From Halichondria panicea (Eukaryota; Porifera; Demospongiae; Suberitida; Halichondriidae), in the NCBI RefSeq assembly GCF_963675165.1, contig NC_087393.1, positions 4,283,502 through 4,347,501 of the forward strand: a DNA stretch of 64,000 bases, given 5' to 3'. Numbering within the stretch: the first letter of the stretch is position 1; every line of letters begins with the position of its first letter. Made by a program: the position numbers and the translations under genes. The notes beneath the pieces were generated by a model. That model saw nothing but the letters and a program-made list of their open reading frames with translations. It was not told the origin of the DNA and made no database searches. This document shows, in pieces, positions 38,101 to 63,981 of the stretch.

Positions 38101-41100
38101 GCAAACCAAGCATGCACTGTATATAATTACTATACTGCTCTCTGTTTGCAGCTGGTATACAACCTAGCTCAGGGTGAGAGCGAGCTTCAACATTTGTTAC
38201 CGTGGCTACTCAATGTCCAGGCTCGTGCCCCTTCCTCCCCTGTCATCATTGTGGGCACCCATATTGACAAGTGAGTGCCCCCTCTACCTGTTTAACTTTG
38301 ACTCATTTTTGTTTCAGTAGTTACGGCTTTAGTTGATTTTGTTGATAAAAACTGTGACAATAATGTAACACTACTTGCATGATGTTTGTTTTATGCAGAT
38401 TGTCACAGGAAGAGTTTGATCAACGTCGAATCATGATGAGGGATAAGATTCGAGATATGATAAAGAAACCTGGTTTTCCTGGAGATATTTACTTCGGAGA
38501 GGTCAGCTGCTTCGATGATAGGCTGGTCTCGGGCCTACGCAAGAAGATCAGGATGCTTATTGATGGGTGCGTACCTTTATTCAGTGTTGTATACCTTACA
38601 AAGTGTGGTATCACTTGAGTACTACATAATTATATCATCACTTAAACATACATACATATTTGGTCTTATTATTACTTGAATACATACATACACATGTATC
38701 TCATCACTTGAATACATACATACACATGTACTTGAATACATGTACATACTTTCCATCACTTTAATACATGTACCGTACTCTACCGAGATTACGCCCACCC
38801 TAATTGCATGCTACAAAGCAGCTACAGGTGTGATGGGCTTAATTTCGAAAACAGCAGTTTGTCTCGAAATTAAGCCCACCCAGGTGTTTGCCTCGAAATT
38901 ACGCCCACTCATTAAGAAACTAGGTCTTTTCTGTCTACGTGTGAGGCCTGCTAGCTCTTAAAATACAATAAATACAGCAATATGCAACATGGTATTGCAT
39001 AGGTAACTATAGCTAGGTATAAAGAAAGTATACAAGTCAAGATTCTGCATCAGAAGGCTGTTACAAGTCAAGATTCTGCATCAGAAGGCTGTCAGAGTCT
39101 TTAACAGAGATTCAGAGAAGATTGTCCTGTATCTCTTATACTTGCAAATATAGCTAGGACCTAGCTATAGCTAGCTATATATATCCAGCTTACACAAGAA
39201 ACTGCTAAACCTTTTCTAGTCTTGACAACTACTCAATGCACTTCCTGGTGGGCGTATTCTCGAGGCAAATTAACCTATGCAAGAACTTTCACTTAAAGTG
39301 GGGGTGGGCGTAATTTCGGATGTGGGCGTAATCTCGGTAGAGTACGGTACATACTTTCCATCACTTGAATACATACACTTGAATGCATACAATTTGAATA
39401 CTGTACATATCATCACTTGAACACATACATGCCATCACTTATCATCACTTGAATATAATTATGTACGTAGTTTGTCAGTGTAAGACATGCACAAAGTGTT
39501 TAGTGTACAGTTAATTATACGTACATACGTATGTAATGTACATGTATAGAACTCGTAGACTGAGACGTACCATTCCAACAGTACCTACTATCAATGCTGG
39601 ACAAGGACAATACTGCTAGTTTAATTGTATTGTGGAAAATGCATGTAACATTGTTTCCATGGCTCTGCAACTGTGCGGTCACTGAATGTAGGCAGCCCAT
39701 AATTTATGTCACAATAATGCTTCCAAAACTCATTCTAAAATCAGTTAAATATACCTATCTTGACAAAATGAAATCATCTATAGTGCCTATCTTAAAACAA
39801 CAATTTCCTGGGGGGGGGGGGCATGCACATTGAGACCCTCCTCTTCGCAGCATTTTCTAAATGAACAGTTGATTCATACTGTTACGTATATTCTACTGGC
39901 TTAATTAGTAATTATTATAACATCAGTGCATGCATGCAGGTGGCAATGATATTAGTAATGTTATCACCACAGGGCCAAGCTGAGAGGGCAGAAGATCATG
40001 GGAGGAATGGTGCCCTCCAATTATTTGGTAAGTGATATATATCCCTGACATTAAGTATCATACTCTGGCGTAAGTAGCCCATTTCTCAGATTGAGCACAC
40101 GTTATACTTAGGCATTTCTTTGCTAACTCAGTGTACATCACAATTAATAAAGGCTTCTAAGAAGTATATACGCATTTTACTTTGCTTCACTATTGGCCTT
40201 CCTCCTGTACAATAAATTTAATTGTTATAATTATGTGTAGGGCGTTAACTGGCTATGAATTATTATCGCAATACTTATTACTTACACATATTGATAATGT
40301 CACAGTCGCCTATAAAGAATGTGTGATGACCATGCATTTACACGTACGAACCTAGCTATATATACATTGCGCACGGAAAGGTATACTTATTATAGCTATA
40401 CGTATAGTGTAGCTATTTTTTTAGCTATCTTAAACAATGATCATGGAGAGCGAAAAGATAGACCAGTATAGACCAACTACGACTGTAAGAGTGCTGGAAT
40501 TCGTGTCACTGCTGGTGGCTACTGTACTGGTAGTGGTAATGTTTATCTTAAGCATTTTATCAAACTTTCCACATATTGGGGTCGGATTTAAGAACGGAAC
40601 GACGGAAGTCTCTGATATTTTCTACACTCAACTCACCCCTGCTGGATGGATCTTCAAGATATGGGGACTCGTGTACACATGGCAAGTCATCTGGATTATC
40701 TATGGCTGGTCCTTTGTCTTCAGACCTGCGACTCCACGGGCAATCTCATTTGTTACTTACATCTTGTACTCGATTGGGCAGCTCTGCAATATAGCCTGGA
40801 CTTATCTCTGGGGAAATTTGTATACTGCAGCCTCTTTTGGTGTTGCAGTTGTACTTTCCCTCATATTATACTCCACTCTGGTTGCACAGGCCATTCACCT
40901 CTACAGGGAAACACCTGCTCTCTCCTCTACAAAGAAGTTCAAGATCGATTTGTACCTCACCCGAATTATTGTGTTGAACAGTATAGCGATATATATCGCT
41001 TGGGTTGCTATAGCTACTGAACTGAATTTTGTGATTCTTCTGGTTTACTATTGTGGTGTTGATGACACTACAGCTGTTACTATTGACCTGGCATGTCTCC

Positions 41101-44100
41101 TCATCGTAATAATTGTCTATTTTATTCTGGAAAACACTCTTTTTGATAGATTTGCACGCTTTGTGTTCATCTTTTATCCATCATTAATCTGGGCTTTCAC
41201 TGGTATAGTGTCAGCACATTGGGGAGTGGAAGAGGACAATCGAAACCCGATCTTTACTCTCGTGTTGCTGGTGTTGTGCATAGTGCTGTTCATTGTCAGG
41301 ATCATTCTATGGATTGTCTTTGCATTTGTACGTCCTCTGGCTGTCCCAAAAACTAAACCACCTCTTAGGGATTTTATTTGCATCATTTGTACGTACTCTG
41401 GCTGTTCCAAAAACTAAAACTACTGTGAACTTTTCATACACATTCCCTTGAATTATCTTATGCTACTGTGACAGCTATAGCTAGTGCATGTATTATATTC
41501 AATGAACGACCAGAACTGCATCTTTATAAGCATTAAGAGTGTTTTAAAAGTTATGCAGTCCCTTCCATGCTATATTGTACGTCGCGTAGCATGATTTGGT
41601 AAGGGTGGTCGTTAATAAAACACATAGCATAAGAATCCTCGAATACAGGAAACTCGCCCTCTTGCTTGTGCCTGTATATTTCATAAAACACTCAGTCAAC
41701 AAATTGTTATGTATTTATCCAGGCCTGGCCTTTTGTAACCGTGCGGAAAGTGACAAAAAGACAGAATAAAAAATTAAAACTCAATTATTCATTCTTTCCA
41801 TATCCACTGTGGATATGGAAAGAAATGTACTCTGTATTGCTTTTTCGGGGTGCCAGGAAGCTTGACACTTCCTGTTGAGTGTTCCAACGTTCCATGTCGG
41901 TCCAGTCTGCCGTATATTATTGTGTTGCAGTTCAAATTGAAAATGTTTACTCCACTTCTTCAATTGTTAGTCCACCACTGCTGTTGTGTCGCCACTGTCT
42001 GCAGGGCCACCTGAATACAATCCACTCCACTCCACAAAACTTCATTCTTCTTTTGTAGTGTTGCAGTCAGGTTAGGTTGTCTGTTTTTTCCAGTATCTCA
42101 ACAAGTTCTACTAAATTTCTATACTGTCGCCTTTCATTGTTTGAAGACGTCTTTCACTCTCAACTGCATGCATGCCGCTCCAGCTCACATAAATTCAATT
42201 CTGTTACAGTTTTTGTAACCACGCCTCGCGCATAAATCAAGTTAGATAAACCACACTCATTCGTAGAATATGCATCTTATCATAGACACATAATTATTCT
42301 ATATACTCGTATATATAGTTTGTATACATATGCCCACTTATTTTCTGACCTCGTGCAGCCATATAATTCTGTCTGCATGATGCTTCATTAGTCACCCCCC
42401 CTGCACTATACTATGCTCCCACACATGCTTGTACTTAGCTTGTACTGATGTAAACATAGCACTTTTACCTGATAGAGCTAGCAGTTGCACACACAATCCA
42501 CACACAGGAATTATGCTACGGCATATGTACCTGAGAGCTCCTATTCAATAAATCTGTTTGCATGTGCACTTGATGTCATTTTTGAAGTGACGTGTAAGGT
42601 TAGTACCTGTGTTACATGCCTTCCAATTATTAAGTAATTAACATTGTAAGTACCATACACTGACGTAAGTGGCCCAACTTTCAGATTGTGCACACATTAT
42701 GCTTTTGGCACGTTATAATAATTATACACACTTGAGAAAGGCTGTAACCATTTTGAGGATCCACATTTTGTGCTTGTGACACTTTAATTGGCCTCCCTAT
42801 AGTACGTATATAGTATAAGGTTTTCTGTGTTCATTGCTACGTGTATAGGGTTAATTGCTAGAAAACCAATGGCCCTGTGTATTAATTGTTGTGCTTGGTC
42901 TGGCCATGATAATTCACACCATATAAATCTGGTCTTTTATTATGCATCGGTGCGCATGCGCAAGCGAGGTATACAGTAGTGTGTTTGTGTGTCTGTGTGT
43001 CTGTGTAGACTGCTATGTAGCTGCTCAAGGATCAATGGAGTGCAAGTAAGAGTTTCTATAGGCTTCTAGTCATGGATTTGAATTCGTGGATTTGCAAAAT
43101 AATGCTTCGTTCTCAAGTTACGTATGCTTAGTTTTGTACTTGGAATGCCATTGCAGCCTCTTCAGAAGAGTGCGTAGCAAAATTAACTTGTTCACCGAGT
43201 GTTGCTACTCTACTTAGTAGTTAGCTCTGCACTAAAACGCTAGCTATTGGTAACTGCAAGAGTGAGAAGAGAGCTGCACGGCTCCGCTGATGCTGAACTT
43301 TTGGCATCAATCGTTTTTAATAACAATCAGTCGACTCTTTACAATAAAACAAAAATGCTCATCATAATGTGTGTATTTAGTAGTTTTGGCACCTCCACCG
43401 AGGCATCAGCACCCGCGGTGCTTTCATTAATTATCGCAATAGTTAATACTTGCACATCATGTCACAGTCAAGCTGTACAAAGAAGGCGTGAAATATTTAG
43501 ATGACCACATATACGAACCTATAGCTATATATATATACAGTGCAATATAGCTATATCTGTATTTGTGCCGGCACTATAATAGCAAGACTAATCATGGAGA
43601 GTAAAAAGATAGACCAGTATAGACCAACTACGACTGTAAGAGTGCTGGAATTCGTGTCACTGCTGGTGGCTACACTACTAGTAGTGGTAATGTTAATCTT
43701 CAGCATTTTATCAAACTTTCCACATATTGGGGTCGGATTTAAGAACGGAACGAAAGAAGTCTCTGATATTTTCTACACTCAACTCACCCCTGCTGGATGG
43801 ACCTTCACGATATGGGGACTCGTGTACACATGGCAAGTCATCTGGATTATCTATGGCTGGTCCTTTGTCTTCAGACCTGCGACTCCACGGGCAATCTCAT
43901 TTGTTACTTACATCTTGTACTCGATTGGGCAGCTCTGCAATATAGCCTGGACTTATCTCTGGGGAAATTTGTATACTGCAGCCTCTTTTGGTGTTGCAGT
44001 TGCGTTTTCCCTCATATTATGCGCTAGTCTTGTTGCACAGGCCATTCACCTCTACAGAGAAACACCTGCTCTCTCCTCTACAAAGAAGTTCAAGATTGAT

Positions 44101-47100
44101 TTTTACATCGCACGAATTGTCGTGTTGAACAGTATAGCTATATATGTACTTTGGGTTGCTATAGCGTCTGAACTGAATTTTGTGATTCTTCTGGTTTACT
44201 ATTATGGTGTTGATGACACTACAGCTGTTACTATTGACTTGGCATGTCTCCTCATCATAATCATCTCCTATTTTATTCTGGAAAACACATTTTTCGACAG
44301 ATTCGCACGATTTATATTTATTGTGTATCCAGTGTTTATATGGGCTTTCTCTGGTATAGTATCAGCACATTGGGGAGTGGAAGAGGACAATCGAAACCCG
44401 ATCTTTACTCTCGTGTTGCTGGTGTTGTGCATAGTGCTGTTCATTGTCAGGATCATTCTATGGATTGTCTATGCATTTGTACGTCCTCTGGCTGTCCCAA
44501 AAACTAGTTTGGGGGATTTGTTTTGCAGCATCTGTTTAAAAAAATGATATTTGAATTAGCTTGCTATATATAGCTATAGCCAGTGTACAATTATCATAAT
44601 GTTTTATTGTGAGTGGACAAATGCATGTAGAACTGCACCGTTATAAGCATTTTCTCTTGTTTAAACCGTTGTCTAGAGCATCATATTAATTATCACCTAT
44701 TTTCTGACCTCATGCAGCCATGGTTCTGTCTTACACTGCATCTGTAATTAATTGTCCTAATAACATATGTACATGTCAGTGTATGTATAGAGGGGTTTAT
44801 GACAATAAACCTCCCGACCACAAGGGCGTAGGTCGAGGGATGGGTGTGGTTTACTGTCATAAACCCCGAGGCACTACATGTGCATTAACTGATATATATA
44901 TATGTCCCATTTGATTGATTGATTGGTTGCTATGCATCCAGCCTATATATAAGCTTGCATGGCTACCACACAGCCCTGAGGTGCCAGTTAAAACGAGTGT
45001 AAAGCCCCGAGGCCAAGGATGCTTTGCGTTGCCATAAATTCAAATGTATAGTGGACCATAAGTGCTATAATTACACCCACTGGAATGAACAATGCTTGCT
45101 ACGTAATAAGCTACCTTACCATGGATACTAACAGTCTCAAAAACTTTTGAAAACAAACGACAAAGCTTGTGCGTATAGCTTTTAGCCAGTGCTAAGCTTC
45201 TAGCTCTACGCACTAACTTATCCATGTCCAAACAGTGAGCCCCACCCTTTCTCCAGCCTTCCTGGTGTTTGGTATAGTTTATGAGGAATGCGGAGTTTAT
45301 GGTATAGTTAAACCCCATGCAGTTGCTATGATACAGACCCCAAGTGGGGTAATATCACACTTATACGTCACCACTATCATTGGTCAACAGCTGTACGATA
45401 CATAGAAAAATAACATAGAGTCCCAAGCATGCACATACAGCTTTCAAGGATTTTTCAAGTTTCATTTTTGTAAGCAATCAGAAAGGAGCCATGCATTCTT
45501 GACGGTATACTAAGACTACAAAGCAACAGCAGAAACACGGACGCTGCCCGCTACTGTGGTTACATACTACGCCTTGGAGTAACCATGGTAGCTAGCTAGC
45601 AGAGGATATTATGGATATCCTCCTCGTATATATATATATATAGGTATGGTACATCGTATACTTATTTTCAGTCACTGTGCGGCGTACAAAATGAGATGCA
45701 CGAGGGAAAGTTGCCTGCATTTAGTCATAAATACTGCAAGCTGATTGGTTAAAGGAAGTGTTCTATCCAACTTAGAAAATCATGTACTTTCTTAGAAAGT
45801 ATGGGCTAGTAGAACCCTCACTATAATATGTTCGGTATAATTATACTATAATTAATACAACCAGCCCTTTGGGCTTCTACATGATTTAGAAACTTCCTAA
45901 ACCGTGTCTAATTATTATGTATAATAAAGCGTAAAACACATGGATTCTCATCTCGGATCAATTAAATCATGCCCCGAAGGCTATACGCGATCGTGTAATC
46001 TACAGTAATACAGAAGGGACTGTGATAACTTTTATTACACCTTTGTTGCCTTGACAACGTGAAAAAAATATTATAATCGACATGCATGCAGAGCTTATTA
46101 TTATAATGTCTCACAGCTATCTTGGAAATGTCTCACACATCACACAGCTGGCATGCAATCTTAGATGTTGGGACAGCCAGAGGACGTACAAATGCAAAGA
46201 CAATCCATAGAATGATCCTGACAATGAACAGCACTACGCACAACACCAGCAACACGAGAGTAAAGATCGGGTTTCGATTGTCCTCTTCCACTCCCCAATG
46301 TGCTGACAATGCACCAGAGAAAGCCCATATGAATAACGGATACACGATAAACACAAATCGTGCAAATCTATCCAAAATCGTGTTCTCCAGAATAAAATAG
46401 ACAATGATAGCAACAAGGAGAATGGACAGGCCAACAGTACTAGCCGTGGTAGCATCAACACCACCATAGTAGACAAGAAGAATGACGAAGTTCAGTTGAG
46501 TAGCTGTAGTAACCCAAGCGGCATATATAGCTACGCTGTTTAAAACAATAATTCGACTGAGGTATAGATCAATCTTAAACTTCTTTGTAGAGGAGAGAGC
46601 AGGTGTTTCTCTGTAGAGGTGAATGGCCTGTGCAATCACAGTGGCATATAGAGATATGCTACACAGAGCTATGATTCCAAATGCTACTTCAGGGTACAAA
46701 TTACCCCATAAGTAGATCCATATGAGATTACAAATGTTCGCGAATCCATAAAATATGTAAGTAACGAATGAGATTGCCTGTGGTGTTGCAGGTCTGAAGA
46801 CAAATGACCAGCCATAAATAATCCAGAGGACTTGAGCGGTGTATATTATTCCCCATATCGTGAAGGTCCATCCAGCAGGGGTGATTTGAGTGTAGTAGAT
46901 ATCAGAGATAGCTCCAGTGGTGTTTTTGAATCCAGCCCCTTCAACATTCGAGAGTGAGCTTGCAAGAAGTGCAACTCCCAGGATGATTGTAGTCAGTAGT
47001 AGAAAGATAAATTCCAGCACTCTGTAGGTCTGGGTCGGCTTATATTGAGAAACGTTTTCATTCTCAATACTACCTTTCTCACTCTCTATAACATTCTCCA

Positions 47101-56100: not shown

Positions 56101-59100
56101 GGTACAAATTACCCCATGTGTAGGTCCATACAATACTACAAAGATTTGCAAATCCATAAAATATGTAGGTAACAAACGAGATTGCCCGCGGTGTTGCAGG
56201 TCTGAAGACAAAAGACCAACCATAGACAATCCAGATGACTTGGGCGGTATATATGACTCCCCATACAGCAAATGTCCATGCAGCAGGACCGATCTGTGTG
56301 TTGTAGCTATCAGAAACCTCTCCTGTTATATTCATGAATCCAGCCCCTTCAATATTAGAGAGTAGGCCTGTAAGAAGTGTGAGCCCCAGGATGATTGTAG
56401 TCAGTAGTAGAAAGATGAATTCCAGCACTCTGTAGGTCAGGGTCGGCCTATATGGAGAAACCTTCACACTCTCCATAATATAGCTTTCTTTGTGAACAGG
56501 TGGCTAGTTGTTTCTGTGACACTTAATTGTCTGATTGTGCTATAATGGTGAGAATGTGTAAGCCTATATCAGTCATTGGGTGTGGTCCACTGAGCATGGG
56601 CTTCTTTTTGTTGATTATGTAATTTTTGTCAACTTTGAATCAAATTAAAAAGCACTGAGATAGTTGCAAATTAAAAATATGCTGACATGTATATAAACAC
56701 ACAAGTAAGCCTAACAACCCAATGATGGCTGTACAAAGTGTCTTTATACAGCACAAAAGGTGTTGCTATAGGAAACACTGAAATTGGACATGCATGCAAC
56801 TGCCGAGGTCACTGATAGTTATATAATAATGATATTCACACCCAGAGGAGGTACGACACAAGTACCTCGATTAGGCTTGGCCACGTGCAAAATTTAACGT
56901 TAAGTTATTGTTGCATATGACTAATTAACTCAATTTTTAGCCTAATCAAGGTAGGCTCGTGTCGGACCTCCTCTGAGTCACACCACTAAGCTACAAAGCT
57001 TATAGTTAGAACTCTATACTTGTCACGGTATTGTGATTAATGGCTGTTATTGTGTGATATTCAACCTATTAGGGAAAAGATGTGTCCTGTGGCAATATTA
57101 TTATTATGTTCTAATTTATCGGACAGCAAAAAATGCTTATTTTGGAAATTGTCCGGGTATAATTGGAACAGATCTTTATAGAGCACTGAAGTGTCCAGAA
57201 TAATAACGACTGAATAGTTGCACTAGCTATATGAAACTAATCCTCAAAGCTATATATCTTGCTGGCTATATTAAAAGCTACTTTATCTCAAGTTTTCAAG
57301 GTATGTCCAGATATTTAGAACAAATGTAAAAGAAGTACCAGAGTGTCCGCTGTATTAGAACAACGAAAATTGCCCAAAAAAGTGTATGGGGTAAAATTGT
57401 TGAAGATATACGGTAGATTGAATCCCCTGATTATATAATACATGTAAAAGGTGTCCTTGTTTCAGAGAGTCCATATTTTGGGGGTTCCATACAATGTTAC
57501 ACTTAAAGTACTATGATTCCTTTCAATGTGTTGAGCACTAGTTGGGCAGAGCCCGACCGTCCCTGACGGGAGGTAGGGTTTCAAGCTTATCTGGGATTTG
57601 TCTTTGCTGCAACTATAGTTGCAGCTCAATCAGATTGCAGCATTTCTAATGTGGTCAGTGTCACGGCTGGTTGCACAACCGCAAGCAAGGTAAAGTTATA
57701 GTAAAATTGGTTAACACCCACTTTATAATAATAATATTCATAGCTTATTCATAGCTGCTATCACATCCAGCAAGACAAATCCAAATCCTGACATAGGCTT
57801 GAAACCCGACCAACTAGCAGTGCACCAGAGAGAGCCTAGGTGAATGTATAATAATTTATGCTAACATAAATTCATAAAAACGAGGAATAGAATAGAACTG
57901 GTTGCTATAGAACTCTGAGCACTGGTTCTAATCATGAAGCCACAGAAGGAAATTAATTAAATTATAATAAACTACAAGCAACTGACACACAACATTATTC
58001 AGCCAATTATGCTGTTTACTACCTAGGGATTGGAAGTTATTGTTTCTCTCACATAGCTATCTTAGATTTTGGAAGTTAATGTCTCACACAACAATCTTAG
58101 GTTTTGGTACAGCCAGAGGACGTACAAATGCAAAGACAATCCATAGAATGATCCTGACAATGAACAGCACTATGCACAATACCAGCAACACGAGAGTAAA
58201 GATTGGATTTCGATTGTCCTCTTCTACTCCCCAATGTGCTGACACTGCACCAGTAAAAGCCCATATGAATAACGGATACACGATGAACACAAATCGTGCG
58301 AATCTATCCAAAATTGTATTCTCCAGAATAAAATAGACAATGATGACCACAAGGAGAATGGACAGGCCAACAGTACCAGCCGTGATAGCATCAACACCAC
58401 CATAGTAAACAAGAAGAATGACAAAGTTTATTTGAGTAGCTACAGTAAGCCAAGAAGCATATATAGCTATACTGTTCAACACAATAATTCGACTGAGGTA
58501 TAGATCGATCTTGAACTTCTTTGTAGAGGAGAGAGCAGGTGTTTCTCTGTATAGATGAATGGCCTGTGCAACCAGAGTGGCGTATAGAGATATTCCACAC
58601 AGAACTATCAATCCAAAGGCAACTTGAGCGTACAAATTACCCCATAAGTAGACCCATGTGATAGTACAAAGGTTTGCAAATCCATAAAAGATGTAAGTAA
58701 CAAATGAGATTGCCCGTGGTGTTGCAGGTCTGAAGACAAAAGACCAACCATAGACAATCCAGAGGACTTGAGCGGTATATATGACTCCCCATACAGCAAA
58801 TGTCCATGCAGCAGGAGTGATTTGTGTGTAGTAGATATCAGAAACCTCTCCTGTTCCATTCCTGAATCCAGCCCCTTCAACATTGGAGAGTATGCTTGTA
58901 AGAAATGTGACTCCCAAGATAATTGTAGTCAGTAGTAGAAAGATAAATTCCAGCACTCTGTAGGTCATGGTCGGCCTATACGGAGAAACTTTCTCACTCT
59001 CCATAATATAGCTTTCTCTATGAACAGGTGGCTAGCTATTTCTGTTGTCTGATTGTGCTATAAGACCAAGCAAAGTCAATTTGTAGTTTCTCAAGCTATT

Positions 59101-62100
59101 ATTTGTAAAATAGCAAGCCATTGAGGCATTTGTTATGATATTCATAGAATTTTAATTGAAAACACACCCCTAACTTCCTCAATAAGCGGAAGTGCATAAT
59201 TTTCACTAATTAATTTTAGTCATAATTATATTCATGACCAAAAATCCATAAAAATGTATCCTTTTCTTTTCTTTTAGTGCCTTTAATTTGAGGTCACGTG
59301 ATATTTATGTAAAGCTGCCAATTTCCAAGCGTGAGGGCCTAAGAAACTACAAATTGACTTTGCATGGCCTACAGAGTTTTTCAGGTTGCTTGCAAAAGTT
59401 GAATTGTGGAAATTTGACTCACGTGATGTTTCGCTCACGTGCCTTAGCCTTATAAGTCAAAATTAAAGTGGGCGGGGGAGTACAGGCATTGTGACCAGCT
59501 AGCCTCCTTCACAAGGCCTCAAAAAGGAGGCCTGCTACTGACTGTTTGCGCATGCGCAAAATTATATCCCCGTAATGTTTCCATTAAACTGATATTTTAC
59601 CCGAAAAATATCCTGAATAACATATACACACAAAGAACACTACATACACAGAGCTATATAGCTAGCTAGCTAGAGACAGAGCTGTACGTTCGGTTACAGC
59701 ATGCTATTTCTTCTGATAGAGTCTACATGTAGACTTTCACCAAGGTTAGTGTCAGATGGGCGTGGCCTGTCCATATAGGCTATTGTCAGCCTTCCCTCCA
59801 TTCAGACGATTGCCATCCACACTGTTGCAGGCTGTGAGTTCTTTGTTAACATAGCAGGCTAAGGGTAGCTATTAGAATGCTATCACACGGGCTAGAAACC
59901 TTCTTCTCCACTTTCTTCAATCCACTTCCGTTGTGACGTCATGGTTTTACTGAGCATTATACAATGATATCCTGAGTCCCCAGTTTCTGGGGATTATGTG
60001 GCGCATGCGCAAACAGTCGATACCAGGCCCTCTCTTCGAGGAAGAGCGGCCTGGGATCGAGGCTATGTGACCAGCTAGCTAGCTGAACAACACACATTCA
60101 AAGCTTTGTACTAGACTTTAAGTTGCTAAACCCTCAGAGAAGAAGTGAGTGGGATCTTAGATCTGTAGTGTAGTATTACTTGCTGGAGAGCATAATTCTC
60201 CAGCATACATACAATTCTTTAATGCTGGAGAAATCCTATATGCTCTCCAACAAAATTTAATATATGCTGCAATCCTGTAGGCTGGCTCCCAATTCTTCTG
60301 TTTTACTGCTGAGTTGAGTCTTTTCATCTTTAAAAAGTCTAGACGAACCTGTATGATTTTGACAAAACATACTGCACAGCATTACAGTGTCAGATTATCA
60401 CTCTTCATTTGTATAAACACTCTAAAATTGTGCTGTTTTTTGCTATTATTTCTCCCCCACCCACTCTTATAAGCTAATTAAGGCTAAGGCACGTGAGCAA
60501 AACATCACTTGAGTTAAATTTCCACAATTAATCGTTGCAAGCAACCTGAAAAACTCTGTAATAGTAAGAATGTATTGGGTATACATTCCAGGTGATGTCC
60601 ACTGATGCATGGGCTTCTTTCTTTTTGTTGATTATGTAATTTTTATACTAGCAGTTCATGCAGTTCCTAATTTTCTATAGCAACACGACCTTTTGTAAAA
60701 CACTTTGTATAACCATCAATTGGGTTGTTAAGCTTGCTTGTGTGCTTATACATGTCAGCAAAATTGAAATTTGCACCATCTCTAATACTATTGGGAAGAA
60801 GATGTGTCCTGTGGCATAGATTGAATCCCCTGATTATACACATAAGAGGTGTCCTTTTTTAAGAGAGTCCATGTTTTGTGGGTTCTACGCAATGTTTCAC
60901 TATGATTCCTTTCTTAACTCTCCAATGTATTGAAGTGCACAAGAGAGAACCTAGATGAATGTATAATCATTTATGCTAACACAACTTCATAAAAATGATA
61001 TTAATAACTGGTTGCTATAGAACTCTGAGCACTGATTTCAATGTTCTATTCATGACTACAAGTACTGGCACACAGAACACAATTATATGCATAACTACAT
61101 TGTTTCTCTCACATAGCTATCTTAGATTTTGGAAGTTAATGTCTCACACAACAATCTTAGGTTTTGGGACAGCCAGAGGACGTACAAATGCAAAGACAAT
61201 CCATAGAATGATCCTGACAATGAACAGCACTATGCATAACACCAACAACACGACAGTAAAGATTGGGTTTCGATTGTCCTCTTCCACTCCCCAATGTGCT
61301 GATACTATACCAGAGAAAGCCCATATGAATAACGGGTACACGACAAACACAAATCGTGCGAATCTGTCCAAAATCGTGTTCTCTAGAATAAAATAGACGA
61401 TGATGACCACAAGAAGAATGGACAGGCCAACAGTACCAGCCGTGGTAGCATCAACACCACCATAGTAGATAAGAAGAATGACGAAGTTCAGTTGAGTAGC
61501 TGCAGTAAGCCAACAAGCATATATAGCTACGCTGTTCAAAACAATAATTCGACTGAGGTACAAATCAATCTTGAACTTCTTTGTAGAGGAGAGAGCAGGT
61601 GTTTCCCTGTAGAGGTGAATGGCCTGTGCAATCACAGTGGCATATAGAAGTATGCCAAACAGGGCTATAAATCCAAAGGCAACTTGAGCATACAAATTAC
61701 CCCATAAGTAGATCCATGTGATATTACAAAGGTTTGCAAATCCATAAAAGATGTAAGTAACAAACGAGATTGCCCGTGGTGTTGCAGGTCTGAAGACAAA
61801 AGACCAACCATAGACAATCCAGAGGACTTGAGCGGTATATATGACTCCCCATACAGCAAATGTCCATCCAGCAGGAGTGATTTGTGTGTAGAAGATATCA
61901 GAGATTTCTTGCGTTCCATTTCTGAATCCAGCCCCTTCAACATTGGAGAGTATGTTTGTAAGAAATGTGACTCCCAGGATGATTGTAGTCAGTAGTAGAA
62001 AGATGAATTCCAGCACTCTGTAGGTCAGAGTCGGCCTATATGGAGAAACCTTCTCACTCTCCATAATGTTAGTAGCTTTCTTTGTGAACAGGTGGCTAGT

Positions 62101-63981
62101 CGTTTCTGATAGTTGTATGAGTGGTTATTTGTGTCCCACACTCGTTTGGCTTAGTGCTAATAGCTCTAAGCTAGAATGTGCATTTAAATAAAATACTCGT
62201 TGAGTACATTCCATGTGCTGTTGTCCAGACTACCTTGCATTGAATAAGGCACTGATGCATGTGCTGCTTTTTGTTTATTATGTAATCTTTATTACTTATT
62301 ACATAATTCATGGCCTTTTGAGTTGTTAGGCTTGCTTGTGTTATACATGTCAGCAAAATGTTGGCTACATGATCTAGGAATTTGCACCATGGGAATAAGG
62401 TGTTGATAACATGGTTGTCACAAGAATTAGGTAAACAGTTTGCTCATGAATATTCATGATTTTCTTATAATGATTTTTGTAAGTGCCATGATAAAAGTTT
62501 GAAGCACATAAATGATATGCATCAATCTGTATGACAAGTATCAGTCTTTAAAAGATTTTCTAGTGGAAGCTCTGAGCGATCATCAAGTTATTAGAATCAA
62601 CACTAACTAGTAGTCGTTTTAAACTTCCAAAAATACTTCTAGCTGTGTGTTTTTGCTCTTATATGATGCTTCTTGCTTCTTACTATTCTGGAGGGCGGAT
62701 CGAAGCGGTTTTTTCTTTCCAGGCCAAGAAACTCTAATACGTAGACTAACTCTACTTAAAATGGTGGTCAGAGCCTAGTTGGGCGTGGCCCGACCGTCCC
62801 TGACGGGAGGTCGGGTTACAAGCTTATCTGGGATTTGTCCTGCTGCATTATGTAACACTGCTATGAATATTGTTATTCTCAAGTAGGTGTTAACTGACTT
62901 GATGACGTGTAGACCACAGCATACACTGCATGCGGTTTCGTAACTAGATGCAAACGGAAGTGTAACTAAGCACATGAAAAATGCTTCAATCTGATAGGGC
63001 GCCACTATAGTGGCGCTAGAACAAATCCCAGATAGGCTTGCAACCCGACCTCCCGTCAGGGACGGTTCAGCCATGCCCAACTAGTCAGAGCCAAGGAAAA
63101 CAGCCTCTGTGAGCTTTCAGTACCAAATATCTCTTCGACCCGCCCTGCATATAGTGAAGCTACAGTAGGCTATACCTAAGCTAACTAGTAAAAATGTCTA
63201 TTCGAGCCATGAAATGACTACTGCGTTTCAGCTGGACTTCTAGCTCATTCTAGCTGCTCACGATCACTAGATCTAGCTCATGATTAATTAATGAGCAAAC
63301 AAACAGTTTATCTTAACTGCAATGGCAATCTTTGACATCTTTAATTGACTTCTGTACTGTAAACACGAGTTAAAAGCCTATAGAAGCTGTTTGTTGCCGT
63401 TACATTGTAACTGTTGGGCAGTTACAGCTGGAATAGACGTACAAACACACACACAGTCAGCTAAACCATATTCCTCGTACGGCTACGCCTCGAAGGGATA
63501 CATTGTATTCAATGAAACATTCATACGTATACGTAATTGATCCTATATTACTGCATGCTCGTGCTTGCTTAACCACCCCTCCCTGTACAGGCTCATGTAT
63601 TGATCCTATTACTGCATGCTCGTGCTTGCTTAACCACCCCTCCCTGTACAGGCTCATGTATTGATCCTATTGCTGCATGCTCGTGCTTGCTTAACCACCC
63701 CTCCCTGTACAGGCTCATGTATTGATCCTATATCACTGCATGCTCGTGCTTGCTTAACCACCCCTCCCTGTACAGGCTCATGTATTTATCCTATTGCTGC
63801 ATGCTCGTGCTTGCTTAACCACCCCCTCCCTGTACAGGCTCTGGAGGACCTCATACAGAGGGAGAAGAAGAGACTGGAACGCAGCAGGAGCAAGTTCCCC
63901 GTGCTACAGGCCAGCAGACTCAGGGAGCTCATGGACGAGAGTCGACTCAGCCAGAAGATGGACAGAACTGAGATTGAGAGA
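23131..63981 (+). CDS. LRRK: LRRK-type Roco protein (ARM-ANK-LRR-Roc-COR), 3' end outside window
   Basis: 31 exons, 1940 residues in view. Exons start at 23131, 23557, 23936, 24222, 24603, 26368, 26639, 26917, 27340, 27651, 28478, 28941, 29269, 29916, 30253, 30477, 31172, 31580, 31971, 32315, 32876, 34642, 35403, 36028, 36519, 37140, 37515, 38152, 38399, 39973 and 63838; phase closes throughout. Residues 1-760 form armadillo-like helices (for example SAGLKALSNLLRN). About 764-859 are ankyrin-like (VLIEIGADVNHAEDTDTPIC). About 860-1300 are Ser/Arg-rich and probably disordered. LRRs run to about 1644 (LDLSSNLLTGL, LNLSNNQLDEFP). The Roc GTPase has P-loop GAAAKGKT at 1690-1697, switch II WDFAGQKEFYSTH and the G4-like VGTHID. 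The COR start VPSNYL continues after the long intron as ALEDLIQREKKRLERSRSKF. The ARM N-terminus points to the LRRK2 rather than LRRK1 type. The kinase domain would lie beyond the right edge. In animals such proteins are GTP-regulated kinases of vesicle and cytoskeletal signalling. Confidence 0.93.
25027..25870. repeat. Minisatellite, about 15 units of 45-60 bp, in LRRK intron 5
   Basis: Units share CCATTACTGTGTGCCTTGAA, an optional CCGAGGGAAC, then CTCTTTCACTTCCTAGTGTA and ACCACC. Length variants come from losing the CCGAGGGAAC part or gaining a TA in CCATATTACTG. Each unit carries a pyrimidine stretch ending in TAG, an acceptor-like string, inside an intron between exons at 24,603 and 26,368. 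Confidence 0.92.
26220..26355. repeat. CA/CCCCAC-rich low-complexity tract
   Basis: Simple CACACA and CCCCCCAC runs directly before the LRRK exon at 26,368, forming part of its pyrimidine-rich acceptor region. Similar tracts precede the exons at 23,557, 24,222 and 31,580. Confidence 0.8.
29625..29820. mobile_element. Foldback MITE family C, copy 2
   Basis: Ends TACCGTATAGCGGGTAATTT and AAATTACCCGCTATACGGTA, arms continuing to CGTGGG and TACCCCACGA. Internal AACGTAGGCGTGGCTTA and GAACGTATGAATGCAGTGTA match copy 1. It lies in an LRRK intron. A small internal duplication (GGTAATGAGACTA) is present. Confidence 0.85.
34901..35287. mobile_element. Non-autonomous transposon remnant with CAGTGGCGTAGGAAG end
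   Basis: The left end CAGTGGCGTAGGAAGCACGG is of a type common among hAT-like elements. The right end CTTCCTATACTCCTCTG is an imperfect complement. Sub-terminal GGGTGCTGGAGCACCCCC and CAGCACCCCCTTAC agree. No transposase frame is seen. It lies in the LRRK intron between the LRR exons at 34,642 and 35,403. Confidence 0.55.
36706..37139 (+). other. GC-AG intron in LRRK
   Basis: The LRR frame ...DNKLKE must join IPKEIGRLSS..., which places the 5' splice site at GAG|GCAAGT (36,706) and the acceptor at TATGTAG (37,137-37,139). GCAAGT after AG is the consensus of the minor GC-AG class. No GT donor in the vicinity keeps the frame. The intron carries the family C-like MITE at 36,825-37,062. Confidence 0.8.
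36825..37062. mobile_element. Foldback MITE, family C-like, diverged
   Basis: Left end TACCGTATAGCGGGAAATTT, right end AAGTTTCCCGCTATGGT. Arms continue with CGTGAGGTGCAAAATTTTGC and GCAAAAATTTGCACCCGTG. The terminal motif is shared with copies at 15,989 and 29,625 but the interior differs, so this may be a related subfamily. Confidence 0.75.
38640..39460. repeat. Tandem TACATACA/ATCACTTGAA satellite split by a MITE
   Basis: Irregular units with CACTTGAATACATACATACA occupy 38,640-38,769 and resume at 39,351-39,455. The break is the inverted-repeat element at 38,770-39,350: left end GTACCGTACTCTACCGAGAT, right end its complement ending GAGTACGGTAC, arms including ACGCCCACCC and GGTGGGCGTAA. 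TACTTTCCATCACTT lies on both sides. Inside the element a 33-bp unit (TACAAGTCAAGATTCTGCAT...) is present twice near 39,029-39,094. Confidence 0.75.
40437..41417 (+). CDS. Multi-pass membrane protein, intronic array copy 1 (possible TspO/MBR relative)
   Basis: Single-exon gene of 326 aa (324 from the second Met at 40,443, MESEKIDQ, which matches the other copies). About eight membrane segments are apparent. A Trp-rich block LTPAGWIFKIWGLVYTWQ is followed by VIWIIYGWSFVFRPATPRAI. Family-invariant stretches RETPALSSTKKFKIDLYL and AHWGVEEDNRNPIFT are present. PAGWTF..WG.IY resembles Trp-rich TspO/MBR-like proteins, but overall similarity is not proven and no substrate can be named. The C-terminus is unusual: DNA coding for FVRPLAVPKTK is partly duplicated just downstream, giving the tail ICIICTYSGCSKN from the out-of-frame repeat. 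It lies inside the 23.8-kb LRRK intron, same strand as LRRK. Confidence 0.85.
   Translation: MIMESEKIDQYRPTTTVRVLEFVSLLVATVLVVVMFILSILSNFPHIGVGFKNGTTEVSDIFYTQLTPAGWIFKIWGLVYTWQVIWIIYGWSFVFRPATPRAISFVTYILYSIGQLCNIAWTYLWGNLYTAASFGVAVVLSLILYSTLVAQAIHLYRETPALSSTKKFKIDLYLTRIIVLNSIAIYIAWVAIATELNFVILLVYYCGVDDTTAVTIDLACLLIVIIVYFILENTLFDRFARFVFIFYPSLIWAFTGIVSAHWGVEEDNRNPIFTLVLLVLCIVLFIVRIILWIVFAFVRPLAVPKTKPPLRDFICIICTYSGCSKN
41418..42929. other. Gap in the array, no gene seen
   Basis: AT-rich spacer between array copies 1 and 2. A 29-bp perfect hairpin (arm CTTTCCATATCCAC) lies at about 41,796-41,824. No open frame resembles a known protein. Confidence 0.5.
42930..43440. repeat. Dispersed repeat, uninterrupted copy
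   Basis: Contains CGGTGCGCATGCGC, GTGTCTGTGTAGACTGC, GGATTTGCAAAATAATGCTT, TGGCATCAATCGTTTTTAA and CGGTGCTTTCATTAAT, in the same order as at 2195-3236. There the element is interrupted by a LINE tail and a pogo-like MITE. Confidence 0.6.
43594..44547 (+). CDS. Multi-pass membrane protein, intronic array copy 2
   Basis: Single-exon gene; 317 aa from MESKKIDQYRP, the start matching the family (the frame is open upstream to 43,540). Very close to copy 1: identical RPTTTVRVLEFVSLLVAT, SNFPHIGVGFKNGT and TYLWGNLYTAASFGVAV, so 1 and 2 are a recent tandem pair. About eight membrane segments, the LTPAGWTFTIWGLVYTWQ block, RETPALSSTKKFKID and AHWGVEEDNRNPIFT are all intact. FKNGT is a possible N-glycosylation site in the first loop. 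The C-terminus SLGDLFCSICLKK differs from copy 1. Plus strand, within the LRRK intron. Confidence 0.85.
   Translation: MESKKIDQYRPTTTVRVLEFVSLLVATLLVVVMLIFSILSNFPHIGVGFKNGTKEVSDIFYTQLTPAGWTFTIWGLVYTWQVIWIIYGWSFVFRPATPRAISFVTYILYSIGQLCNIAWTYLWGNLYTAASFGVAVAFSLILCASLVAQAIHLYRETPALSSTKKFKIDFYIARIVVLNSIAIYVLWVAIASELNFVILLVYYYGVDDTTAVTIDLACLLIIIISYFILENTFFDRFARFIFIVYPVFIWAFSGIVSAHWGVEEDNRNPIFTLVLLVLCIVLFIVRIILWIVYAFVRPLAVPKTSLGDLFCSICLKK
44548..46132. other. Gap between convergent array copies 2 and 3
   Basis: No gene recognised. Holds an inverted repeat at about 44,792-44,866 (GGGGTTTATGACA and TGTCATAAACCCC) and foldback family A copy 2 at 45,722-45,925. This is where the array changes orientation. 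Confidence 0.5.
45722..45925. mobile_element. Foldback repeat family A, copy 2
   Basis: CATAAATACTGCAAGCTGAT, AAAGGAAGTGTTCTATCCAA, GGGCTAGTAGAACCCTCACT, AACCAGCCCTTTGGGCTTCT and AACTTCCTAAACCGTGTCTA occur in the same order as in 3405-3740, with a shorter left part and an AT-rich expansion in the loop. Confidence 0.65.
46133..47101 (-). CDS. Multi-pass membrane protein, intronic array copy 3
   Basis: Single-exon gene of 322 aa. The N-terminus is longer and more divergent than other copies (MENVIESEKGSIENENVSQY), then joins the family at YRVLEFIFLLLTTIILG. The ITPAGWTFTIWGIIYTAQ block, RETPALSSTKKFKIDLYL, ENTILDRFARFVFIVYP and AHWGVEEDNRNPIFT are intact. About eight membrane segments. The C-terminus TSKIACQLCDV is unlike the PKPKIVV end of copies 5-9. 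It is the most distinct minus-strand copy and probably the oldest of them. Antisense to LRRK, within its intron. Confidence 0.85.
   Translation of the reverse strand: MENVIESEKGSIENENVSQYKPTQTYRVLEFIFLLLTTIILGVALLASSLSNVEGAGFKNTTGAISDIYYTQITPAGWTFTIWGIIYTAQVLWIIYGWSFVFRPATPQAISFVTYIFYGFANICNLIWIYLWGNLYPEVAFGIIALCSISLYATVIAQAIHLYRETPALSSTKKFKIDLYLSRIIVLNSVAIYAAWVTTATQLNFVILLVYYGGVDATTASTVGLSILLVAIIVYFILENTILDRFARFVFIVYPLFIWAFSGALSAHWGVEEDNRNPIFTLVLLVLCVVLFIVRIILWIVFAFVRPLAVPTSKIACQLCDV
47102..48342. other. Gap between array copies 3 and 4, with a tandem duplication
   Basis: A 103-109-bp unit is present twice in tandem (47,231-47,333 and 47,334-47,442), containing GAGCTGTTCAATCTGGTTGC and GTCATTAAACGAGATTGTCA. 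No gene is recognised in the remainder. Confidence 0.7.
48343..49272 (-). CDS. Multi-pass membrane protein, intronic array copy 4
   Basis: Single-exon gene; start taken at MESEKVSPYRP (49,272, 309 aa) because all copies share it, although the frame is open to 49,383. Family blocks ITPAGWTFSVWGVIYTAQ, RETPALSSTKKFKIDLYL, ENTILDRFARFVFVVYP and AHWGVEEDNRNPIFT are intact. FRNGT is a possible N-glycosylation site. The C-terminus PKLRYSSVCR differs from copies 5-9. The leader upstream (GAAACAACTAGCCACCTGTT) is shared with copies 5, 7, 8 and 9 and suggests common 5' regulatory DNA. Antisense to LRRK. Confidence 0.85.
   Translation of the reverse strand: MESEKVSPYRPTLTYRVLEFIFLLLTTIILGLTFLTSILSNVEGAGFRNGTGEVSDIYYTEITPAGWTFSVWGVIYTAQVIWIVYGWSFVFRPATPRAISFVTYIFYGFANLCNIIWVYLWGNLYAQVAFGLIVLCGISLYATLVAQAIHLYRETPALSSTKKFKIDLYLTRIIVLNSLAIYASWLTVATQLNFVILLVYYGGVDATTASTVGLSILLVVIIVYFILENTILDRFARFVFVVYPLFIWAFTGAVSAHWGVEEDNRNPIFTVVLLVLCIVLFIVRIILWIVFAFVRPLAVPKLRYSSVCR
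49964..52257 (-). pseudogene. Intronic array copy 5, broken by deletion and 1.37-kb insertion
   Basis: Nearly identical to copy 7 (55,556-56,476). Reading from 52,257, MESVKVSPYRPTLTYRVLEF runs to LLLTTI and then enters foreign DNA at 52,173. The gene resumes at about 50,802 and continues through MNRTGEVSDSYNTQ and ITPAGWTFSVWGVIYTAQ. Near 50,455 the sequence CAATCAGTGGCG replaces CAATCACAGTGGCG of the intact copies, a 2-bp loss that shifts the frame. The remainder is open in the other frame to 49,964 (PKPKIVV). The single-exon gene is therefore disrupted twice. It is the only dead copy of the nine. Confidence 0.92.
50803..52173. mobile_element. 1.37-kb insertion in array copy 5, containing a long foldback
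   Basis: The gene sequence breaks after AGGATGATT at 50,802 and resumes at GATTGTAGTCAG (52,174), so GATT is at both edges as a short duplication or microhomology. The right half (about 51,630-52,177) is a foldback: arms of about 120 bp starting AATCCGACTAGAAAAACATT, with a loop near 51,760-52,050. The left part holds a GTAAAACC...GGTTTTAC hairpin at the edge and a run of AAGT repeats near 51,065-51,095. No transposase frame is recognised; the whole may be composite. Confidence 0.75.
52624..52757. mobile_element. Foldback MITE family B, copy 2
   Basis: Ends CAGAGGAGGTACGACACAAG and CTCGTGTCGGACCTCCTCTG. Flanks ATTCACACC (52,615-52,623) and AGTCACACC (52,758-52,766) agree at 8 of 9 positions, supporting the 9-bp target duplication seen for the copy at 7241. 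Confidence 0.8.
53334..53564. mobile_element. Foldback MITE family D, copy 1 (degenerate)
   Basis: Starts TAGTTGGGCGGAGCCCGACC and ends AGGCTTGAAACCCGACCAAC then TA. Arms include AAGCTTATCTGGGATTTGTC. A better preserved copy with an exact target duplication is at 62,776-63,083. Confidence 0.75.
53849..54769 (-). CDS. Multi-pass membrane protein, intronic array copy 6
   Basis: Single-exon gene of 306 aa from MESEKVSPYRPTLTYRVLEF (54,769); the frame is open upstream to 54,871, but the shared start is preferred. Differs from most copies in ITPAAWTFAVWGVIYTAQ (PAAW for PAGW), as does copy 8, its partner in the duplication. About eight membrane segments, RETPALSSTKKFKIDLYL, AHWGVEEDNRNPIFT and the PKPKIVV end are intact. 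The 5' leader differs from copies 4, 5, 7, 8 and 9 just upstream of the start. Antisense to LRRK. Confidence 0.87.
   Translation of the reverse strand: MESEKVSPYRPTLTYRVLEFIFLLLTTIILGVTFLTSILSNVEGAGFRNGTGDVSDIYYTQITPAAWTFAVWGVIYTAQVLWIVYGWSFVFRPATPRAISFVTYIFYGFANLCTITWVYLWGNLYAQVAFGLIVLCGISLYATVIAQAIHLYRETPALSSTKKFKIDLYLSRIIVLNSIAIYASWLTVATQINFIILLVYYGGVDATTASTVGLSILLVVIIVYFILENTILDRFARFVFVVYPLFIWAFTGAVSAHWGVEEDNRNPIFTLVLLVLCIVLFIVRIILWIVFAFVRPLAVPKPKIVV
54770..55555. other. Spacer between array copies 6 and 7
   Basis: The right part (from about 55,050) repeats 49,458-49,960, marking the left boundary of duplication block B. No gene recognised. Confidence 0.6.
55556..56476 (-). CDS. Multi-pass membrane protein, intronic array copy 7
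   Basis: Single-exon gene of 306 aa starting MESVKVSPYRPTLTYRVLEF. It is the intact partner of dead copy 5, sharing MESVKV, FMN.TGEVSDSYNTQI, VNYGGVDPTTAGTVGLS, GVEKDNQNPIFT and FVRPLVVPKPKIVV. These substitutions (EKDNQN for EEDNRN, SYNTQ for IYYTQ) set the 5/7 pair apart from the rest. The Trp block reads IGPAAWTFAVWGVIYTAQ. About eight membrane segments. Antisense to LRRK. Confidence 0.87.
   Translation of the reverse strand: MESVKVSPYRPTLTYRVLEFIFLLLTTIILGLTLLTGLLSNIEGAGFMNITGEVSDSYNTQIGPAAWTFAVWGVIYTAQVIWIVYGWSFVFRPATPRAISFVTYIFYGFANLCSIVWTYTWGNLYPQVAFAFIALCGISLYATVIAQAIHLYRETPALSSTKKFKIDLYLTRIIVLNSVAIYASWLTAATQLNFVIVLVNYGGVDPTTAGTVGLSILLVVIIIYFILENTILDRFARFVFVVYPLLIWAFTGIVSAHWGVEKDNQNPIFTLVLLVLCIVLFIVRIILWIVFAFVRPLVVPKPKIVV
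56843..56975. mobile_element. Foldback MITE family B, copy 3 (by segmental duplication)
   Basis: Same ends and flanks as the copy at 52,624-52,757, with one base fewer in the interior. It was copied with block B rather than inserted independently. Confidence 0.8.
57539..57816. mobile_element. Foldback MITE family D, copy 2 (by segmental duplication)
   Basis: Same as 53,334-53,564 but longer by about 47 bp; TAGTTGGGCAGAGCCCGACC on the left and AAACCCGACCAACTA on the right. The block A copy probably lost the internal stretch. Confidence 0.7.
58084..59004 (-). CDS. Multi-pass membrane protein, intronic array copy 8
   Basis: Single-exon gene of 306 aa starting MESEKVSPYRPTMTYRVLEF. Nearly identical to copy 6, its duplication partner, including ITPAAWTFAVWGVIYTAQ and the LCTITWVYLWGNLYAQVAFG segment; differs at a few positions (VDAITAG, FVFIVYP). 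First membrane segment at about residues 18-40, Trp block at 60-78, charged RETPALSSTKKFKIDLYL loop at about 150-167, conserved AHWGVEEDNRNPIFT near 255-270, last membrane segment before PLAVPKPKIVV. All blocks intact. Antisense to LRRK. Confidence 0.87.
   Translation of the reverse strand: MESEKVSPYRPTMTYRVLEFIFLLLTTIILGVTFLTSILSNVEGAGFRNGTGEVSDIYYTQITPAAWTFAVWGVIYTAQVLWIVYGWSFVFRPATPRAISFVTYIFYGFANLCTITWVYLWGNLYAQVAFGLIVLCGISLYATLVAQAIHLYRETPALSSTKKFKIDLYLSRIIVLNSIAIYASWLTVATQINFVILLVYYGGVDAITAGTVGLSILLVVIIVYFILENTILDRFARFVFIVYPLFIWAFTGAVSAHWGVEEDNRNPIFTLVLLVLCIVLFIVRIILWIVFAFVRPLAVPKPKIVV
59061..59371. mobile_element. MITE with GACCAAGCAAAGTCAATTTG-type ends
   Basis: Left AGACCAAGCAAAGTCAATTT then GTAGTTTCTC; right AAGAAACTACAAATTGACTT then TGCATGGCC is the inverted counterpart. 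TA borders each side. No coding content. Confidence 0.7.
59370..60560. mobile_element. 1.2-kb non-autonomous transposon with 90-bp inverted ends and nested foldbacks
   Basis: The left arm TACAGAGTTTTTCAGGTTGC... runs to about 59,456; the right arm is the complement from about 60,468 to CTCTGTA at 60,560 (for example GCACGTGAGCAAAACATCAC). Inside is a second inverted pair (GACTGTTTGCGCATGCGC near 59,541 and its complement near 60,001). A copy of the CGGCCTGGGATCGAGGC terminal sequence of the MITE at 736-842 lies near 60,047. It looks like serial insertion. No transposase frame was recognised. Confidence 0.65.
60561..61143. other. Spacer downstream of array copy 9, no gene seen
   Basis: AT-rich flank sharing motifs with the other copies' 3' flanks (AGAGAGTCCA, TTTCTCTCACATAGCTATCT, TTAGATTTTGGAAGTTAATG). 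Confidence 0.5.
61144..62064 (-). CDS. Multi-pass membrane protein, intronic array copy 9
   Basis: Single-exon gene of 306 aa starting MESEKVSPYRPTLTYRVLEF. Carries ITPAGWTFAVWGVIYTAQ, RETPALSSTKKFKIDLYL, ENTILDRFARFVFVVYP, AHWGVEEDNRNPIFT and PKPKIVV. It has its own features: FRNGTQEISDIFYTQ, FGFIALFGILLYATV and AIYACWLTAATQLNFVILLI. About eight membrane segments. It is closest to the right end of the array and lies about 1.8 kb before the next LRRK exon. Antisense to LRRK. Confidence 0.87.
   Translation of the reverse strand: MESEKVSPYRPTLTYRVLEFIFLLLTTIILGVTFLTNILSNVEGAGFRNGTQEISDIFYTQITPAGWTFAVWGVIYTAQVLWIVYGWSFVFRPATPRAISFVTYIFYGFANLCNITWIYLWGNLYAQVAFGFIALFGILLYATVIAQAIHLYRETPALSSTKKFKIDLYLSRIIVLNSVAIYACWLTAATQLNFVILLIYYGGVDATTAGTVGLSILLVVIIVYFILENTILDRFARFVFVVYPLFIWAFSGIVSAHWGVEEDNRNPIFTVVLLVLCIVLFIVRIILWIVFAFVRPLAVPKPKIVV
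62065..62775. other. Spacer upstream of array copy 9, no gene seen
   Basis: The first 40 bp contain the shared leader (GTTCACAAAGAAAGCTA on the minus strand). The rest is AT-rich without recognised content. Confidence 0.5.
62776..63083. mobile_element. Foldback MITE family D, best-preserved copy with 9-bp target duplication
   Basis: Ends TAGTTGGGCGTGGCCCGACC and its near complement ending CATGCCCAACTA. Arms continue through GTCCCTGACGGGAGGTCGGG and AAGCTTATCTGGGATTTGT. GTCAGAGCC flanks both sides exactly (62,767-62,775 and 63,084-63,092). No coding potential. Confidence 0.88.
63537..63837. repeat. Minisatellite of 5 units, each with a splice-acceptor sequence
   Basis: Five units of 60-64 bp: TGATCCTAT..., CTGCATGCTCGTGCTTGCTT, AACCACCCCTCCCTGTACAG and GCTCATGTAT. 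The fifth unit ends CCCTGTACAG|GCTCTGGAGG, the true acceptor and exon start at 63,838. Units 1-4 carry the same pyrimidine tract and CAG followed by GCT, as decoy acceptors. Confidence 0.92.

Follow-up and report, generated by a model that had tools for sequence, protein, structure and literature searches.

The LRRK Gene and Its Long Intron

The window analyzed here is a 64-kb stretch of contig C17 (4,283,502–4,347,501), and 131 Mb of genome sequence was searched alongside it; positions refer to the window unless a contig is named. Its right-hand part carries an LRRK gene on the forward strand, modeled with 23 exons and 22 introns (36,028–70,334), the final part being taken from the sequence beyond the window. 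The spliced model is stop-free over 1,062 aa, and human LRRK2 residues 1175–2171 match model residues 13–1041 in a single stretch (E 7.5e-203). Seven modeled exons (36,028–40,027, +) encode the end of the LRRs and Roc, with a Pfam profile match to Roc (PF08477) at 37,635–37,925. The next exon (63,838–63,981, +; ALEDLIQREKK..) contains the start of COR and includes an in-frame ATG, and the remainder of COR, the kinase, and further exons follow beyond the window. The COR-A match at C17:4347730–4347858 reaches 33.2 bits against a cut-off of 35.3, probably because a single exon alone was matched. LRR, Roc, COR, and kinase thus occur in one chain that is collinear with LRRK2, which places the gene among the LRRK (ROCO) kinases, and what we take to be the P-loop (GAAAKGKT) and the YRDLKP and DYG motifs are present in the model.

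Between the last exon of the Roc part (39,973–40,027, +), which ends in ..VPSNYL, and the COR exon lies a GT–AG intron of 23,810 bp (40,028–63,837, +), compared with 100–1,406 bp (median 261) in the other 21 of the 22 modeled introns. Both of its splice sites, the donor ..PSNYL|gtaagt at 40,027/40,028 and the acceptor tacag|GCTCTGGAGGAC at 63,837/63,838, follow the canonical pattern and agree in phase, and the LRRK2 alignment is unbroken through the ..VPSNYL|ALEDLIQ.. junction, which falls at V1528|E1529 by our own count on the alignment. The proposal of the initial annotation that these two exons join in phase across one intron is therefore borne out by canonical sites, a common phase, and a single-stretch match to LRRK2. 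The modeled intron at 36,706–37,139 has a GC–AG donor, AAAGAG|gcaagt.

The distance from Roc to the nearest same-strand COR-A match is 26.3 kb at LRRK versus 213–1,845 bp for 12 other Roc matches, a weak comparison because 10 of the 12 other pairs fall inside one open frame. Two ROCO paralogues have a frame that is open across the position judged homologous by eye (..PASYLVLED.. and, on the reverse strand, ..PRSYQELQS..) and thus seem to have no intron there. The genome contains a large ROCO expansion, with at least 60 COR-A matches, many of them in open frames of ~600–1,700 aa, and equal-scoring COR-A repeats occur on C10 (4289778, 4392395, and 4436983). Upstream of LRRK, an open frame of 1,027 aa at 16,460–19,543 contains motifs which we take to be of the C2H2 zinc-finger type, and a further C2H2-like frame is located at 13,891–14,619.

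The Nested Gene Copies

The long intron harbors eight intact single-exon ORFs of 306–324 aa, two in sense and six in antisense orientation to the host, together with a ninth, broken antisense copy. The sense copies are S1 (40,443–41,417, +; 324 aa, or 326 aa from an ATG at 40,437) and S2 (43,594–44,547, +; 317 aa). The intact antisense copies are A1 (46,133–47,101, −; 322 aa), A2 (48,343–49,272, −; 309 aa, or 346 aa from an upstream ATG at 49,383), A4 (53,849–54,769, −), A5 (55,556–56,476, −), A6 (58,084–59,004, −), and A7 (61,144–62,064, −), the last four encoding 306 aa each. Protein identity among the eight intact copies is 66–97%. Several paralogues are thus located between two consecutive host exons, which makes the array a nested cluster of the GMC/Flo-2 kind. 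The count of nine copies given at the outset stands insofar as nine were found, although one of them (A3) is dead and eight are intact; the division into two sense (S1 and S2) and seven antisense copies (A1–A7) is correct, and the description as one single-exon family of ~8 TM agrees with the single-exon ORFs and with a modeled copy that has eight long helices. At its tail (41,328–41,417), S1 repeats its own 3′ coding end imperfectly, with starts at 41,328 and 41,389, 61 nt apart, and this repeat alters the C-terminus of S1 relative to S2. No Rfam match was obtained within 40,000–64,000, and TATA and poly(A) words near the copies were not clearly above background.

The A3 pseudogene (49,964–52,258, −) consists of a body with a frame change (49,964–50,806) and an N-terminal piece (52,174–52,258), split by the insertion of a uniform, high-copy mobile element of ~1.37–1.4 kb (50,807–52,173). 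Of 128 matches to this element listed genome-wide, 41, the window copy included, span 1,110–1,367 of the 1,367 query positions at 95–100% identity; at least 40 other long matches are thus found elsewhere at 95–99% identity, a lower bound, as scoring covered 40 of 1,056 candidate places. The ends ATTAGTAAAACC.. and ..CTAGTCGG are common to the window copy and six further copies, and no clear target-site duplication was detected around these seven. The element carries internal inverted repeats at its positions 823–951 and 1243–1367.

Family Members Outside the Intron

Protein searches of the genome, one starting from a nested copy and another from the most divergent copy, returned the identical 13 genes, all on C17; a weak match on C14 (E 0.157) was left out of this count. 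Nine of the 13 are in the LRRK intron, and the other four are clustered at C17 3,595,820–3,602,312, 0.7 Mb away, so the family is not confined to the intron as was originally claimed. The four outside copies are single-exon as well. The absence of introns from the nested copies is consequently no proof of retrocopying, and a retrocopy origin is not supported as such. Two outside copies are fused head to tail into one intronless frame of 671 aa (C17, minus strand; 3800–5815 of the extracted piece), which, to judge by its length and make-up, might encode a 16-TM protein. From a reading of the ORFs, the outside cluster looks to be flanked on one side by the initial coding exon of an RNA-binding-protein gene and on the other by a second gene. 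With these neighbors, no coding intron seems to enclose it, and an intron in a 5′ UTR would be compatible with its position.

A tree of the animal copies with eight prokaryote sequences, the root of which is uncertain, places the eight intact nested copies on one side of a branch (support 93/93), with the four outside copies beyond it. Of the animal copies, the outside copy C2d diverges first (87/78 for the rest), and the outside cluster therefore looks older; both values are under the usual mark of 95, and the prokaryote branches are long. The tree thus suggests that the outside copies are the older branches. The outside cluster could conversely have been derived from nested copies, given that the key branches fall below the usual mark and that the prokaryote branches are long.

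Relationship of the Encoded Proteins to TspO/MBR

As judged from the comparisons below, the family appears to be an 8-TM relative of the long “tryptophan-rich sensory proteins” of bacteria, with a distant relationship to TspO/MBR. Direct comparisons with libraries were unproductive: none of six window proteins matched TspO_MBR (PF03073) at E ≤ 1 in a Pfam scan, and nothing significant was obtained with Pfam for these six, with NCBIfam for four, or with PHROGs for three. Matches to CofH_C (E 0.0095 and 0.14, under its cut-off, over 30 residues) and a weak match to an antiporter model (E 0.53) were rejected. A phmmer search of one copy against PDB sequences gave no match at E ≤ 1, and the first scans with a family alignment yielded no confirmed relative among 65 pattern matches in prokaryote genomes and 47 in viral contigs.

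The connection emerged through the divergent outside copy C2d. A tblastn search of plasmids with C2d matched a Thermus protein (WP_143587263.1), a long “tryptophan-rich sensory protein”, at 27.6% identity and E 2e-7, among 41 records at E ≤ 1, of which 28 were from Thermus and many were weak. With the Thermus protein as reference, at least 555 of 593 matches from a second scan of prokaryote genomes were confirmed, and 80 were kept. A single profile–profile comparison of the animal family with 28 prokaryote proteins aligned 211 columns at E 6.5e-25. In a joint alignment of 52 members (45 bacterial or archaeal, seven from the window), 20 matched TspO_MBR at E ≤ 0.01 (best 4.8e-9), the match list leaving the matching members unnamed. 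A cyanobacterial relative matched TspO_MBR over residues 40–169, under the curated cut-off. Homology with TspO/MBR is thus found via intermediates.

The structure model built from the joint alignment (pLDDT 82.6, pTM 0.80) contains eight long helices, predicted at residues 13–40, 66–91, 101–123, 126–153, 164–200, 206–230, 242–257, and 268–294; a model from the eight window sequences alone (pLDDT 41.2) was set aside. A Foldseek search of the former against the PDB returned 95 matches at E ≤ 10, none significant (best E 0.93), and TspO was absent among the best 50 of these 95. The nested family shares the motif PAGxxFxxWGxIY with the Thermus protein and TspO/MBR, whereas it differs from the latter in size, the Pfam model having 145 positions and the nested proteins 306–324 aa, one of which was modeled with eight long helices. 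By analogy with what has been proposed for TspO, and from family membership only, the likely role of these proteins is the binding or moving of small hydrophobic molecules. With the array, a branch of long TspO-like membrane proteins comes into view in animals for which none of the library models used has a name. Ordinary TspO/MBR matches, distinct from the long family, occur in neighboring pieces at C5:4315330–4319722, and the genes concerned apparently contain introns.

Selection, Duplication, and Probable Gene Conversion

Pairwise comparison of the eight intact nested copies gave dN/dS ratios of 0.19–0.50 throughout (28 pairs), which indicates purifying selection and hence that the copies are functional now or were until recently; the ratios lend indirect support to expression of the nested genes. 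Silent divergence among them is uneven. The growth of the family in place, as the initial annotation had it, is supported by the tandem copies and by a two-gene block duplication, in which the left half with A3 and A4 (49,467–54,795) is 96–98% identical, insertion aside, to the right half with A5 and A6 (55,052–59,033); the two pieces of the block are 97.7% and 96.2% identical.

Near the 3′ end of the ORFs, the two orientations become nearly alike. Nucleotide identity between sense and antisense copies is 69% in alignment columns 16–149, 78% in 150–267, and 95% in 268–331. The last part corresponds to a candidate conversion tract of 51 codons (64 alignment columns) at 41,196–41,348 (+) in S1, with equivalents at 44,347–44,499 in S2 and in every intact antisense copy. 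Exact runs common to sense and antisense copies reach 98 nt. In codons for equal amino acids, 20 silent fixed differences between the two groups occur in 136 codons before column 268 and none in 42 after it (Fisher p 0.0045). The local tree of the first part of the ORFs unites S1 and S2 at 1.000, whereas from column 268 on S2 groups with A7 (0.886) and S1 adjoins A5. A permutation test of run lengths gave p ≤ 0.05 for eight of the 12 sense–antisense pairs at all polymorphic sites (three after Bonferroni correction) and for six of the 12 at silent sites (two after correction); support for conversion is thus not uniform across the pairs.

Gene conversion between inverted copies would be the simplest reading of this apparent 51-codon homogenization. 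The rise could alternatively stem from selection acting on the sequence itself, be it at the protein, RNA, or DNA level, an explanation that we consider unlikely. It would fit the presence of the rise in all eight intact copies and the silent polymorphisms common to the sense and antisense groups, which number seven before column 268 and zero after it; conversion could leave such common polymorphisms, and their lack in the stretch counts against it. However, nested and outside copies are 56%, 58%, and 55% identical in the same three parts, so general constraint fails to explain the sense–antisense rise. The outside copies are just 55% identical to the nested ones in nucleotides and 52% in protein across the stretch, they vary among themselves there as elsewhere (90% versus 91–92%), and the local tree changes at the stretch, all of which argues against selection as the cause.

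The flanks of the copies are consistent with conversion, which we prefer, and leave room for another origin of their pattern. Over the adjoining 300 nt, identity is 47–53% for S1/S2 (upstream, 53%), for A1/A7, and, on the upstream side, for A6/A7 and A4/A6, which is no better than the 50% of one shuffled control. Conserved flanks were found for A3/A5 (99–100%), A4/A6 downstream (98%), A6/A7 downstream (78%), and A2/A4 upstream (71%). This pattern fits conversion limited to the ORFs, yet it also fits the independent placement of ORF-sized copies.

The Repeated 3′ Splice Site and Possible Interplay at the RNA Level

The 3′ end of the intron carries an array of five tandem ~61-bp copies of the host 3′ splice site (63,536–63,841, +). 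Each cassette comprises a branch-point-like CTTAAC, a pyrimidine tract, and TACAG|GCTC, with a spacing of 61–63 bp. No exact upstream copy was found within 500 nt of the other 21 LRRK acceptors, and a DNA search of the genome by a method that skips simple repeats found the array once. Use of an upstream acceptor (first exon base at 63,776, 63,713, 63,652, or 63,591) would add 62, 125, 186, or 247 nt, of which solely 186 is in frame and would insert 62 stop-free residues. The array may be a by-product of minisatellite formation, or it may serve the splicing of the long intron. With its repeated acceptor, the locus would allow giant-intron splicing to be tested directly in a gene with otherwise short modeled introns.

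In S1, 308 of 975 nt belong to runs, 21 nt or longer, that are perfectly complementary to an antisense copy; in S2, the figure is 326 of 954 nt. Such perfect complementarity makes double-stranded RNA physically possible, and the antisense copies would also collide with host transcription. That they interfere with, or are silenced by, the transcription of the host, as the initial annotation suggested, stays a conjecture. One could envisage a coupled system in which LRRK transcription yields paired sense and antisense RNA for the control of the family by siRNA or antisense, cross-strand conversion keeps the runs perfect, and the acceptor array secures or regulates splicing; as a whole, we see only a slim chance for such coupling. 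Sense and antisense copies within one transcription unit provide internal controls for the effects of host transcription on either strand.

Continuity of the Host Gene

The array might separate two genes if LRRK transcription stopped within the first sense copies and the COR–kinase half had a promoter of its own. Words that could end host transcripts (AATAAA or ATTAAA) do occur within 400 nt downstream of the sense copies, three for S1 and one for S2. However, the chance rate of these words here is 0.57 per 400 nt, and canonical splice sites of a single phase have been kept at both ends of the intron, so that we hold two genes to be very improbable. The least credible alternative, that an assembly error joined halves of LRRK from different loci through the array, draws on the ability of tandem and inverted copies, some of them 97–99% identical, to confuse assembly, a fault by which the exact number of nested copies could be wrong, but it is opposed by halves that fit together on LRRK2 with residue precision and a common intron phase, a fit hardly expected of a chance join, and by the location of the array in a 5.74-Mb contig, in a window without Ns.

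Proposed History of the Array

With considerable confidence, we favor a functional LRRK gene with one long intron, in which a single-exon 8-TM TspO-related gene settled once and multiplied. The founder would most likely have come from the small and seemingly older outside cluster, 0.7 Mb away on this chromosome, and would have entered the LRRK intron a single time. The family would then have grown there by tandem and inverted duplication, the latest step being the copying of the two-gene block A3+A4 to A5+A6, while conversion between copies, those on opposite strands included, may have held parts of the ORFs alike. Eight copies have stayed open and evolved under purifying selection, and A3 was killed, with the mobile element as one of its lesions. 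A separate promoter presumably drives each copy, and splicing of the host transcript would remove the whole array. The locus shows cleanly, in a natural setting, how a gene family can expand inside an intron, and its 24 kb let one read off a dead copy, the most recent block duplication, a candidate conversion tract, and a likely source cluster outside.

Comparison with Known Nested Clusters

Gene families nested in a single intron are known, the human KRTAP10 genes in TSPEAR being one case of nesting. The closest counterpart is found in insects, where 10–12 GMC oxidoreductase genes occupy one large intron of Flo-2, almost all of them antisense to the host; in Drosophila, the second intron of Flo-2 (83.2 kb) contains 12 of these genes, and the host is transcribed in the opposite direction (PMC1891103). 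Tandem duplication was proposed for the cluster, relatives are found elsewhere, in some insects on the same chromosome, and the genes encode enzymes, can have introns, share 27–69% protein identity in the fly, and have kept their order across insects (PMC1891103). The two systems are alike in having a family in one intron, mostly antisense, that is proposed to have grown by duplication and has further members elsewhere, partly on the same chromosome. By contrast, the LRRK-nested copies are closer to each other (66–97% in protein), single-exon, and divided into two sense and seven antisense copies with apparent cross-strand conversion.

Several membrane-protein paralogues in one host intron, as in LRRK, are likewise described for the TipE/Teh cluster in the last intron of CG18675, where in Drosophila four members are accompanied by one gene from a different family; its expression is documented, and the cluster is said to have escaped nesting in the silk moth and the flour beetle (PMC3240667). 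Intronic genes are frequent in sponges and ctenophores, single-exon ones among them, with 2,432 nested genes (12.4% of genes) in Aphrocallistes vastus and, in Hormiphora, 2,357 spread over 1,654 host genes; the descriptions excerpted from these reports mention no family of nine copies within a single intron (PMC10282587, PMC8527503). The initial annotation had called the arrangement unusual; the insect clusters in Flo-2 and CG18675, which show the same arrangement, and the share of nested genes in one sponge speak against this view. Among the top-ranked matches of a limited literature search, no paper on this locus or on LRRK-nested genes was found. A gene family nested in one intron has a clear precedent. 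To our knowledge, what is less usual here is the mixed orientation with apparent cross-strand conversion, a likely source cluster within reach, and the five-fold acceptor. The last of these, a host 3′ splice site repeated five times in tandem, is the new detail that this locus adds to the known nested clusters.
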